From a virus: 64,000 nucleotides of DNA. How positions within the stretch are numbered: position 1 is the stretch's first letter; each line of letters begins with the position of its first letter. A program made the translations under genes and the position numbers. The notes beneath the pieces are model-generated. The model searched no databases, was not told the DNA's origin, and saw only the letters and a list, made by a program, of their open reading frames with translations. Shown piece after piece: positions 23,891 through 26,967 of this stretch. The stretch covers positions 1 through 64,000 of IMG/VR virus record IMGVR_UViG_3300044712_000982; one strand, written 5' to 3'.

Positions 23891-24130
23891 TCAGACCGGT
23901 TTTCCTTCGGCGATTCGCTTCGCGCGCGTGTCTGCGCGCCATCTCCGGATCGGCCCGCGCTTCTTCCCGGGCAGAGGTGTTGCCGGATGCTCCGCGCGCC
24001 ACTCCATGTAGTCCCGGATGTCTTGAGCGCGGCCGAGGTCTCCTGTGACCTCGGTGTAGGCATCGAAGATCGGCGCGGGTACGCGGAAGCGACGGACGTC
24101 GGTCGTTGTCTTCTCCGCTTCCTCGGACAT
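23891..24130 (-). CDS. 79-aa RHH-like small protein, paralogue of 28036-28239
   Basis: ATG 24130 begins MSEEAEKTTTDVRRFRVPAP and contains DIRDYMEWRAEHPATPLPGK then KRGPIRRW. The same order of motifs (strand, LRxY-EWR, P-TPLPG-RRGP) occurs in the gene at 28239. The short N-terminal strand (VRRFRVP) followed by helices suggests a ribbon-helix-helix-type DNA binder. Both genes are isolated leftward units with identical promoter architecture. Confidence 0.6.
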   Translation of the reverse strand: MSEEAEKTTTDVRRFRVPAPIFDAYTEVTGDLGRAQDIRDYMEWRAEHPATPLPGKKRGPIRRWRADTRAKRIAEGKPV

Positions 24131-24136
24131 GGGCCG

Positions 24137-24166
24137 AGGGTACGACAGTTGCCCTCCGGATGTCTA
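24137..24166 (-). promoter_or_regulatory. Leaderless promoter of gene 24130
   Basis: On the minus strand: TAGACA (complement of 24161-24166), 18-nt spacer, TACCCT (complement of 24137-24142), 6 nt, ATG 24130. Confidence 0.65.
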
Positions 24167-24261
24167 CAACCGCGACCACATCGACGTCTGGCGTGTGGCT
24201 TGATTTGTGGCACACCAGCAGCTACGTTTGTGGCACCAAAACTGATCACACTGGAGGCAGC

Positions 24262-25418
24262 GTGAGAGACGCCGAACTGTGCGCCGGCTTCGGGGGCTTG
24301 CACCTCGGCCTCCAACTCGCCGGACTCCCCGTCCATCTCGCGTGGTACGCCGAAAACGACCCCGCACCATCCGTCGTCATGGCCACCCACCACCCCGACA
24401 CCCCCAACATCGGCGACATCACCACCGCCAACTGGGACGCAGCCGAACCGGTCGACATCCTCTGCGCCGGATTTCCATGCCAGCCGTTCTCCCTCGCAGG
24501 GAAACGGCGCGGATCAGCCGACGAACGTCACCTCTGGCTCACCGGCGTGCTCCCCGCGATCACGACGCTTGAGCCCGAGGTCTTCTTCGGCGAGAACGTC
24601 CCCGGGCTGCTCACCATCGAACGCGGCGAGGTTTTCCGCGCGATCCTCACCGACCTCACCGCGCGCAACTACACCATCCGCTGGACCACCATCGGCGCCT
24701 GCAAAGTCGGCCTGTGCCACCACCGGCACCGCGTCTTCATCCTCGCAACCCGCCAGATCGGCGAACTCCCACCCGAGTTGGGCATGCCGATCTCGGCCTG
24801 GTCCAGGGGCCGCAGCCGCAACCCGTGGCCGCGCGACGGAGTATGCGCGGGCGGCGAAGTGTGGGACGAACCTACCGACCACTGCCACAAGACCGGCCTA
24901 CTGCCCACCCCGACCGCGACACCGTACGGCAACAACCAGACCGACAGCCCGGGTGCCGCCGTGCGCCCATCACTCGACGCCCTCGCGCCACTCCTACCGA
25001 CGCCACGCGCATCCGACGGCGAAAAGGGCGGCCCGAACCAGCGCGGATCATCCGGCGACCTCGCCCTACCCGCCGCCGTGCAGCCCGAACGGTGGGGCCA
25101 GTACGCCGAGGCCGTGTGGCGACACGAACTCATCACCGGCATGCGCGCACCCGACCCGACCATCACCGGCAAACGCGGCGGACGTCGCCTCAATCCGGAG
25201 CTCACAGAGTGGATGCAAGGGCTACCGGCCGGGTGGATCACCGGCTCGATCCTGCCCGACAAGGACCCGCGTCCGGACCGCATCGACCGGAACGCCGCTA
25301 ACAAGATCGCTGGAAACGGCGTGGCTGTTCCCGCCGTGGCTGCCGCCGTGCGCCGGCTACTCGACCGTGCTGGCTGGGCCGCGCTGCCATCCCAACCCGC
25401 ACCGGAGGTGCAGCATGA
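24262..25418 (+). CDS. C5-cytosine DNA methyltransferase (end uncertain)
   Basis: GTG 24262 follows CTGGAGG. Motifs in order: I ELCAGFGGLHLG, IV GFPCQPFSLAGK (catalytic Cys near residue 73), VI GENVPG, VIII GLCHHRHRVFILA, a target-recognition region (residues 190-340) and X NKIAGNGVAVPAV (near 355). It should methylate cytosine at C5 in one sequence, protecting phage DNA or acting as a solitary Dcm-type enzyme. The end is a problem: the frame has no stop until 26967. I place the end at the ATGA overlap with the next gene (TGA 25416-25418, different frame), which requires a one-base shift near the 3' end. Confidence 0.75.
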
Positions 25419-25918
25419 GCAAGTTTCTATACGCGTTCGGCGCGTCGGTCGCCTACCTCGGCACGATCGTTGCCGCGAACTGGGCCATCGCAACGTTCGG
25501 CGCGGTCCCGGTCGGGTTCGGGCTCGTAGCACCCGCTGCGGTCTGGTTCGCAGGTCTCGCGTTCACGCTCCGGGACCTACTTCACGACGCAGCCGGACGC
25601 TGGGCGGTGCTCGCCGCAACTGCTGTCGGTGCGGTCTTGTCGGCCGCCGTCGCGGGTCCGGCCATGGCGCTGGCATCGGGCGTCGCGTTCGGCGTATCGG
25701 AGCTGGCGGACTTTGCCGTCTATGCCCCGTTGCGCCGTCGCCGCTGGCTCCTCGCCGTGGCCGCATCCAACGCATTCGGACTCGTGGCCGATTCGCTGCT
25801 GTTCCTCTGGCTGGCGTTTGGGTCGCTCGCGTTCCTGCCGGGCCAGATCGTCGGCAAAACCTGGATGACGATCCTCGCCGTCGCAGTCCTCGCAGTGTGG
25901 CGGAGGTGCCGCAGGTGA
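25415..25918 (+). CDS. yhhQ: YhhQ/VUT-family queuosine-precursor transporter
   Basis: 167 aa; ATG 25415 has GGAGG 6 nt upstream. It has four to six hydrophobic spans and the VUT signatures FTLRDLLHDAAGR, SELADFAVYAPLRRR, SNAFGLVADSLLFLWLAFGS and GQIVGKTWMT. In E. coli YhhQ imports preQ0/preQ1. A phage copy next to a DpdA-like enzyme suggests uptake of 7-deazaguanine precursors for DNA modification. It overlaps the flanking genes by ATGA and GTGA, so the three are co-translated. Confidence 0.85.
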   Translation: MSKFLYAFGASVAYLGTIVAANWAIATFGAVPVGFGLVAPAAVWFAGLAFTLRDLLHDAAGRWAVLAATAVGAVLSAAVAGPAMALASGVAFGVSELADFAVYAPLRRRRWLLAVAASNAFGLVADSLLFLWLAFGSLAFLPGQIVGKTWMTILAVAVLAVWRRCRR

Positions 25919-26967
25919 GGCTCTACCTCGGCGTGGACGTCGGCTGGCTCAACCGGCCCGAGATGGCTGGTACGCCGCGCTGCGTCTCCCGCAACCGACT
26001 CGCCGGGCGTCGCAGCATCCAGCGCGCCAACGGGCCGATCCTCATCGACTCCGGTGCTTTCACCGAACTCAAAACCCACGGCCGGTGGCGCATCACCCCC
26101 GCAGAATACGTCGCCGAGGTGCGCCGCTACGTCGCAGCGATCGGGCCAGACAACGTCGTGGCCGTCGGGCCGATGGACTGGATGTGCGAGTCCGTGGTCA
26201 TCGACGGAGGCGTCACGAAAGACGGGCGCTTCGCCGGTACTCGTGCGGCCATCGGCATGCCAGACGCGAGCCTCGACGAGTGCATCGCTGAGCATCAGCG
26301 CCGCACCGTCGCCAACTACCTCGAACTCCGGGCGCTCGCGCCTGACCTGCCGATCATGCCCGTCTTGCAGGGCTCGACCCTCGACCAGTACCTCCGCTGC
26401 GTCGACATGTACCGGACGGCTGGTGTTGAACTGCGCACGGTGCCGCTCGTCGGGCTCGGCTCCGTCTGTCGACGGCAGGCGTCGGACGAGATCGACCTGA
26501 TCGTCACCACCCTCGAATCGCTCGGGATGTCCCTGCACGGGTTCGGCGTCAAGTCCGGCGGACTCGCCGCGTATGGGCCGCTCCTCACCTCCGCCGACTC
26601 GATGGCCTGGTCCTACGGCGCCCGGAAACGCGGCGGCCGGTGCGTCCACGGGCTTGTCAGGTGGGAGACCAACTGTCCCGCGTGGGCTGCCGCGTGGTGG
26701 CGCCGAACCACGGCACGTATCAACTGCGCGCAACCCGCGCTCGACCTTTGGAGTGCCGTCATGACCGTCACCGCCACGTGGACGCGCCCCACGTGCGACA
26801 CCTGCCGCGCGGTCTACACCCCGACCGGCCCGTACTGGGACGGCACCAACGACCGCATCGACGCCATGGCCCGCGCCGCCGGTTGGGGCATTGCCGTTGG
26901 TGTCACCCACGGTGGGCGCCCGTATGCGGCAGCGGCGTGCCCGACCTGCCGCCGTGGTGGTGCATGA
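25915..26967 (+). CDS. dpdA: DpdA-like deazapurine transglycosylase with zinc-ribbon tail
   Basis: 350 aa, GTG 25915 (overlap GTGA). It resembles phage DpdA-type (TGT-fold) proteins: ILIDSGAFTELKTHGRWRIT, YVAAIGPDNVVAVGPMDWMC, LPIMPVLQGSTLDQYLRCVD, VPLVGLGSVCRRQ and LHGFGVKSGGLAAYGPLLTS with a beta-barrel-like repeat of strand ends. DpdA enzymes swap guanine in DNA for a 7-deazaguanine. After residue 280 comes a 68-residue segment from MTVTATWTRPTCDTCRAVYT to ACPTCRRGGA (C-x2-C...C-x2-C), possibly a separate gene starting at ATG 26761 or a real fusion. Confidence 0.7.
   Translation: MRLYLGVDVGWLNRPEMAGTPRCVSRNRLAGRRSIQRANGPILIDSGAFTELKTHGRWRITPAEYVAEVRRYVAAIGPDNVVAVGPMDWMCESVVIDGGVTKDGRFAGTRAAIGMPDASLDECIAEHQRRTVANYLELRALAPDLPIMPVLQGSTLDQYLRCVDMYRTAGVELRTVPLVGLGSVCRRQASDEIDLIVTTLESLGMSLHGFGVKSGGLAAYGPLLTSADSMAWSYGARKRGGRCVHGLVRWETNCPAWAAAWWRRTTARINCAQPALDLWSAVMTVTATWTRPTCDTCRAVYTPTGPYWDGTNDRIDAMARAAGWGIAVGVTHGGRPYAAAACPTCRRGGA

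Follow-up and report, generated by a model that had tools for sequence, protein, structure and literature searches.

The DNA analysed here (the window, 64,000 nt) is part of a 106,285-bp IMG/VR virus record, which may itself be a fragment. A preliminary description of the window had placed a block of three genes, encoding a methyltransferase, a YhhQ-like transporter and a DpdA-like transglycosylase, at positions 24262-26967, and we find all three there, with Pfam matches above the cut-offs. The first gene (24262..~25414, + strand, GTG start) encodes a Dcm-type C5-cytosine DNA methyltransferase. This assignment is based on its match to Pfam PF00145 DNA_methylase (E=6.7e-38) together with motifs IV (PCQPFS), VI (ENVPGL), VIII (RHRVF) and X (AGNGVAVP); motif IX (LNPELTEWM) can also be read, and the protein matches a PHROG annotated as DNA methyltransferase (E=1.5e-59).

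The second gene (25415..25918, + strand, ATG start) encodes a 167-aa membrane protein predicted to be a 7-deazapurine transporter of the Vut_1/QPTR family (YhhQ-like, COG1738; PF02592, E=2.6e-9; phrog_4899, E=9.3e-38), whose score of 38 bits exceeds the curated Pfam cut-off for Vut_1 of 27.2. A candidate ribosome-binding site read from the sequence, GGAGGT (25404..25409, + strand), lies 5 nt before its start. The protein is homologous to the preQ0/preQ1 transporter YhhQ of E. coli (QPTR, COG1738; PMC5372724), with which it has its Pfam family in common, and 13 columns, including N22, D54, D99 and D126, are invariant across the phage set and YhhQ. It is, however, shorter than the E. coli protein (221 aa), to which it is ~28% identical.

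The third gene (25915..26967, + strand, GTG start) encodes a predicted DpdA-family guanine transglycosylase of 350 aa (PF23859, E=2.1e-59; phrog_1279), which scores 201.4 bits against a curated Pfam cut-off of 27. It has a candidate ribosome-binding site of its own, GGAGGT (25902..25907, + strand, from reading the sequence), 7 nt before the start, and this start overlaps the stop of the transporter by 4 nt (GTGA, 25915-25918). The two genes had been described as co-translated; the overlap and the GGAGGT at Shine-Dalgarno distance for each gene bear out the arrangement, and because of them coupled translation itself is plausible. In an alignment of 23 sequences, DpdA residues D45, D88, Q152-G153, G180 and D228 are invariant, and the catalytic-type motifs DSG, D..CE, QG, GxG and the ADS aspartate are conserved; by motif, we take the invariant residues to correspond to those of tRNA-guanine transglycosylases (TGTs). 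The window DpdA is nearest to the DpdAs of 'singleton' mycobacteriophages. It carries a C-terminal Cx2C...Cx2C extension (26761..26964, + strand; ~68 aa, residues 283-350) that is present in none of the other 22 aligned DpdAs and begins at an ATG; in the DpdA of another locus (L013), a Cys-rich segment is found at the N-terminus instead. The codon-position GC of the extension is still coding-like, its pLDDT is under 50 in the AlphaFold model, and it is possibly a fused neighbouring gene.

Profile searches of the 106,285-bp record gave no match to QueC (PF06508), QueF, QueD/PTPS (PF01242), radical SAM/QueE (PF04055) or FolE (PF01227), and positive controls for these searches matched in the expected bacteria. 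The lack of preQ0 biosynthesis genes described for the window thus extends to the whole of this possibly fragmentary record, in which the FolE/QueD/QueE/QueC de novo pathway (group 2 of Hutinet 2019) is absent. A megablast search of the window against GenBank phages gave no match, and hence the virus has no close isolate among them. The host appears to be an actinomycete, judging from the terminase, whose best isolate matches are mostly phages of Brevibacterium, Arthrobacter and Glutamicibacter (with one Microcystis phage among them), from a DUF5753 regulator in the record, and from the dnaN region of the record, which resembles Nocardia and Nonomuraea replicons. Among the 197 Actinomycetes genomes searched, just 4 had QueC at full length (E<1e-60) and two more had a weaker match; the remaining matches were low-scoring and mostly partial. 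PreQ0 could therefore seldom come from hosts of this kind.

The neighbourhood of the transporter was surveyed in IMG/VR with the transporter as the sole query, blind to its neighbours, which yielded 69 loci (~35 clusters at 85% identity). To call TGT-like neighbours, we used the window DpdA, as well as GenBank-phage neighbours annotated as DpdA-like, to build HMMs. By this measure, a TGT-like gene lies beside the transporter at 67 of the 69 loci and in 34 of the 35 clusters at 85% identity, with gaps of 5 to 622 bp between the matched domains; in the bacterial-genome control, the same query had a TGT-like neighbour at 1 of 80 loci. The partners fall into three TGT-like families: A (PF23859, as in the window), B (phrog_15826) and C (phrog_887). 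Among the pairs listed, six of family A have the exact 4-nt overlap (the window, L002, L004, L017, L035 and L039). One of the two exceptions, L102, is cut by the end of its contig. The other, L061 (242-1989), is a phage contig that encodes the transporter, a deaminase, DUF6884 and a fragment of QueC, and no member of the three TGT families; it may hold a further enzyme type. An apparent exception in GenBank, the 'phage' MT837598, was set aside as bacterial DNA (GlnE, ferrochelatase, GrpE). The pair is also found in the GenBank phages StevieRay, Majeke, Aoka, RHph_N3_2, RHph_X2_30, phiLM21 and Pam5, and in all six actinomycete plasmids examined (Streptomyces, Embleya, Nocardia). StevieRay and Majeke are Mycobacterium phages with a family B partner, and M. 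smegmatis mc2 155, on which they grow, is reported to lack preQ0 genes (PMC6884629); Aoka is an Arthrobacter phage. Mycobacterium phage Brusacoram (L211), a relative of StevieRay, offers a natural control: at a single breakpoint, it has lost the TGT-like gene and everything beyond residue 60 of the transporter. The pair is therefore dispensable there.

The type of partner changes often on a 132-row transporter tree (8 changes for family A, 9 for B and 6 for C), and no fewer than 4, 5 and 4 of these changes, respectively, are required by well-supported branches. Sister transporters can have differing partners, as in L031 (C) and L032 (A) or L037 (A) and L046 (B), and the gene order of the pair also flips between loci. 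The pairing has been re-formed repeatedly, a pattern that shared descent alone would not give and that points to a functional bond. We are highly confident that the transporter and DpdA work together as a functional unit.

The neighbours of the pair also bear on its cargo. QueF reduces preQ0 to preQ1. In Aoka, a QueF-like gene (PF14489, E=8.7e-7) lies between the transporter and the TGT, and L041 and L043 have QueF in the same place. Its presence inside the module implies a supply of preQ0 and ties the cargo to this base. Among 49 transporter records, QueD exceeded the cut-off in none and QueC in one. By guilt by association, with a TGT neighbour at 67 of 69 loci and QueF in three modules, the phage transporter would import preQ0 or preQ1; as judged by sequence, preQ0, preQ1 and queuine are indistinguishable as candidate cargo.

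The explanation that we consider probable is that the transporter and DpdA form a salvage module, with 7-deazaguanine modification of DNA as its most likely outcome. During infection, the phage transporter would be placed in the host membrane and import an external 7-deazapurine base, most likely preQ0 and possibly preQ1. DpdA, made from the overlapping start, would then swap guanines of the phage DNA for the imported base by TGT-type base exchange. The importer would replace the four-enzyme preQ0 synthesis pathway of other phages, and modification would depend on environmental supply. Enterobacter phage EC151 has the full preQ0 pathway as well as a transporter (PMC8310023), so the importer does not serve solely as a replacement. 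Salvage is the best-supported reading, given that the two genes are paired almost universally in mobile elements, that this pairing has arisen repeatedly, and that three phages have QueF between them. Our data directly establish the gene content, the overlap of the starts, the TGT fold of the model, the conservation of catalytic-type residues and the recurrence of the linkage, whereas preQ0 as the substrate, DNA as the target and protection from restriction as the benefit are inferred. In the literature, we found no modified base reported for any element with this exact transporter-transglycosylase pair. The preliminary description had the phage either importing or stealing host 7-deazaguanine: if the host is an actinomycete, stealing is less likely than import from outside, given the scarcity of QueC in that class.

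Searching the PDB with sequence profiles of families A, B and C yielded chance-like matches only, and an alignment of E. coli Tgt with family A was of low probability and confined to the N-terminal DSG region. As the PDB searches were uninformative, a comparison of folds was needed. The AlphaFold model of the window DpdA (pLDDT 79, mostly over 90 in the barrel) has a TGT-type TIM-barrel fold. Its first match in Foldseek is 7ui4, the DNA preQ0 insertase DpdA (E=9e-8), followed by human TGT and another TGT. In VIA-align, all 50 entries listed belong to the TGT family, at Z ~17-18 over ~245 residues, and include tRNA TGTs as well as DpdA, so the fold alone cannot tell a DNA from a tRNA target. 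Family B, which includes Aoka gp40 and StevieRay gp54 and whose phrog_15826 is labelled 'unknown function' in PHROGs, gave a confident TIM-barrel model (pLDDT 89); TGTs match it at Z 14.7, on a par with pyruvate kinases, which reach up to 15.5. By hhalign, family B is related to family C (E=3e-6), and no connection of family A to either was found. The enzymes of B and C are short, mostly ~185-230 aa, and lack the C-terminal part of tRNA TGTs.

The common fold, with tRNA TGTs at the same Z as DpdA, is the starting point of the strongest alternative, in which the pair modifies host or phage tRNA and not DNA: queuine or preQ1 would be imported and inserted into tRNA by the TGT-like enzyme, tuning translation during infection. 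TGT is present in 43 of the 197 Actinomycetes genomes, and the DNA activity of the DpdA subgroup to which the window protein belongs is putative, both of which fit a tRNA target. We nonetheless regard it as unlikely, as the best Foldseek match is a DNA enzyme, the family is named DpdA in Pfam, and the small size of the B and C enzymes and the missing C-terminal part set them apart from tRNA TGTs.

Salvage directed at DNA could also involve a different base. Under this second alternative, the two genes do work together, but what is imported is some other purine or modified base, and the DNA modification is something other than preQ0 or preQ1. COG1738 is a heterogeneous set of transporters whose substrates vary and may include queuine or other purines (PMC5372724, PMC11130926). 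The window itself has no QueF gene; against this, three other phages have QueF, an enzyme acting on preQ0, within the module. To our knowledge, all TGT-family enzymes characterised so far use 7-deazaguanines, and on both counts we find a different cargo improbable.

The methyltransferase frame has no stop of its own ahead of the transporter start. It is open from 24106 to 26964, out of frame across the transporter and in frame into DpdA, and the closest stop codon belongs to a different frame, namely the TGA within the ATGA at the transporter start (25416). When the transporter was recoded with the codon usage of this genome, the same frame stayed open in 22% of trials, and the corresponding frame is likewise open in many GC-rich phage transporters; at a chance of 22%, the open frame is odd but not extraordinary. 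The missing stop may reflect a small insertion, a deletion or a sequence or assembly error near the end of the gene, or the gene may give a long read-through product; under either reading, the start and ribosome-binding site of DpdA are its own. For this reason, and because it is not unusual for a frame other than that of the transporter to stay open across it, we gave a true fusion of Dcm and DpdA a low rating. That the module is silent or decayed in this phage, its block damaged or misassembled, is very doubtful: the open frame 1, the stopless methyltransferase and a DpdA that runs 68 aa beyond its usual end as a stray C-terminal fusion would fit such decay, but the transporter and DpdA are full-length with their ribosome-binding sites and all invariant residues, and the opening has the stated probability by chance and is common in GC-rich relatives.

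Neither a transporter nor a DpdA was found in the flanks of any of the 18 methyltransferase-query loci (L104-L121), and the methyltransferase was rejected as a member of the module on this basis. It is probably an independent protective gene beside the pair and not part of a conserved unit. The earlier idea that the phage combines a deazapurine with cytosine methylation therefore loses its footing, the methyltransferase not being a recurrent neighbour of the pair.

Phage 7-deazaguanine DNA modification is known from CAjan, Rosebush and 9g, in which DpdA occurs with FolE/QueD/QueE/QueC (Hutinet 2019, PMC6884629). These phages, like the present one, carry a DpdA-family transglycosylase, with 7-deazaguanine in DNA as the expected product; this record, in contrast, has no biosynthesis gene and couples an importer to the transglycosylase instead. 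A preQ0/preQ1 transporter beside a biosynthesis cluster was reported for Pantoea phage Vid5 (2018, PMC6266253) and Enterobacter phage EC151 (2021, PMC8310023), and the authors proposed salvage. Both combine a Vut_1 transporter with DpdA/Tgt, as here, but EC151 carries four preQ0 biosynthesis genes, and Vid5, to go by its citation in PMC8306585, three of the four, whereas here the transporter and transglycosylase stand alone. Phages that have DpdA and no preQ0 genes, again as here, include Orion and 7-11 (group 3, Hutinet 2019, PMC6884629) and MED16 (PMC8306585), and it is mycobacteriophage enzymes that the window DpdA most resembles. Unlike the window, these three have no reported transporter (PMC6884629, PMC8306585). 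Orion, whose DpdA is reported as one of the 'singleton' mycobacteriophage enzymes, has no source of preQ0; its DNA was measured as unmodified in M. smegmatis, which weighs against the DNA-modification reading, and YhhQ was uncorrelated with any phage group in the same study (PMC6884629). The order Vut then PF23859 DpdA recurs on plasmids of Streptomyces sp. QHH-9511, S. janthinus JCM 4387, Embleya NBC_00896 and Nocardia NBC_01377, although these are plasmids (possibly phage-plasmids) and not a virus record; our literature search found no study of this actinomycete plasmid pair. Phage preQ0 transporters were thus already known (Vid5, EC151, Hutinet 2019), and the distinction here is that an importer and a transglycosylase take the place of de novo synthesis. 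What we provisionally regard as new is that, away from biosynthesis clusters, the transporter is linked almost universally, and through repeated re-formation, to three TGT-like families, together with the control in bacterial genomes, the occurrences on plasmids and the scarcity of QueC in hosts.

Phages with DpdA only have been puzzling, as many lack the means to make the substrate, some of their hosts do likewise, and the one mycobacteriophage tested was unmodified. A coupled importer offers a concrete and testable answer, namely an external origin of the base. Should this hold, the modification would be hidden on standard laboratory media, the restriction resistance of a phage would vary with its microbial neighbourhood, and three enzyme families, one of them labelled 'unknown function' in PHROGs, would gain a predicted role. 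More tentatively, and a little short of what we would call probable, the importer and transglycosylase could constitute a widespread, repeatedly assembled system of phages and plasmids in which genome modification and restriction resistance depend on a nutrient scavenged from other microbes, with the short B and C families as further DNA-guanine transglycosylases.

An Embleya plasmid (L203) resembles the window in having cytosine methyltransferase genes, two of them, upstream of its transporter-DpdA pair; unlike the one in the window, they are not adjacent to the pair. Elsewhere in the window, positions 9046-10650 encode a TROVE-domain (Ro60-like) protein (E=5e-18). Further along the record, at ~71.5-72.7 kb (L027:7519-8652), is a phage-encoded DNA polymerase III sliding clamp (DnaN), and at ~72.9-74.9 kb (L027:8900-10873) an N6/N4 DNA methyltransferase that is apparently split by a Hint/LAGLIDADG intein.
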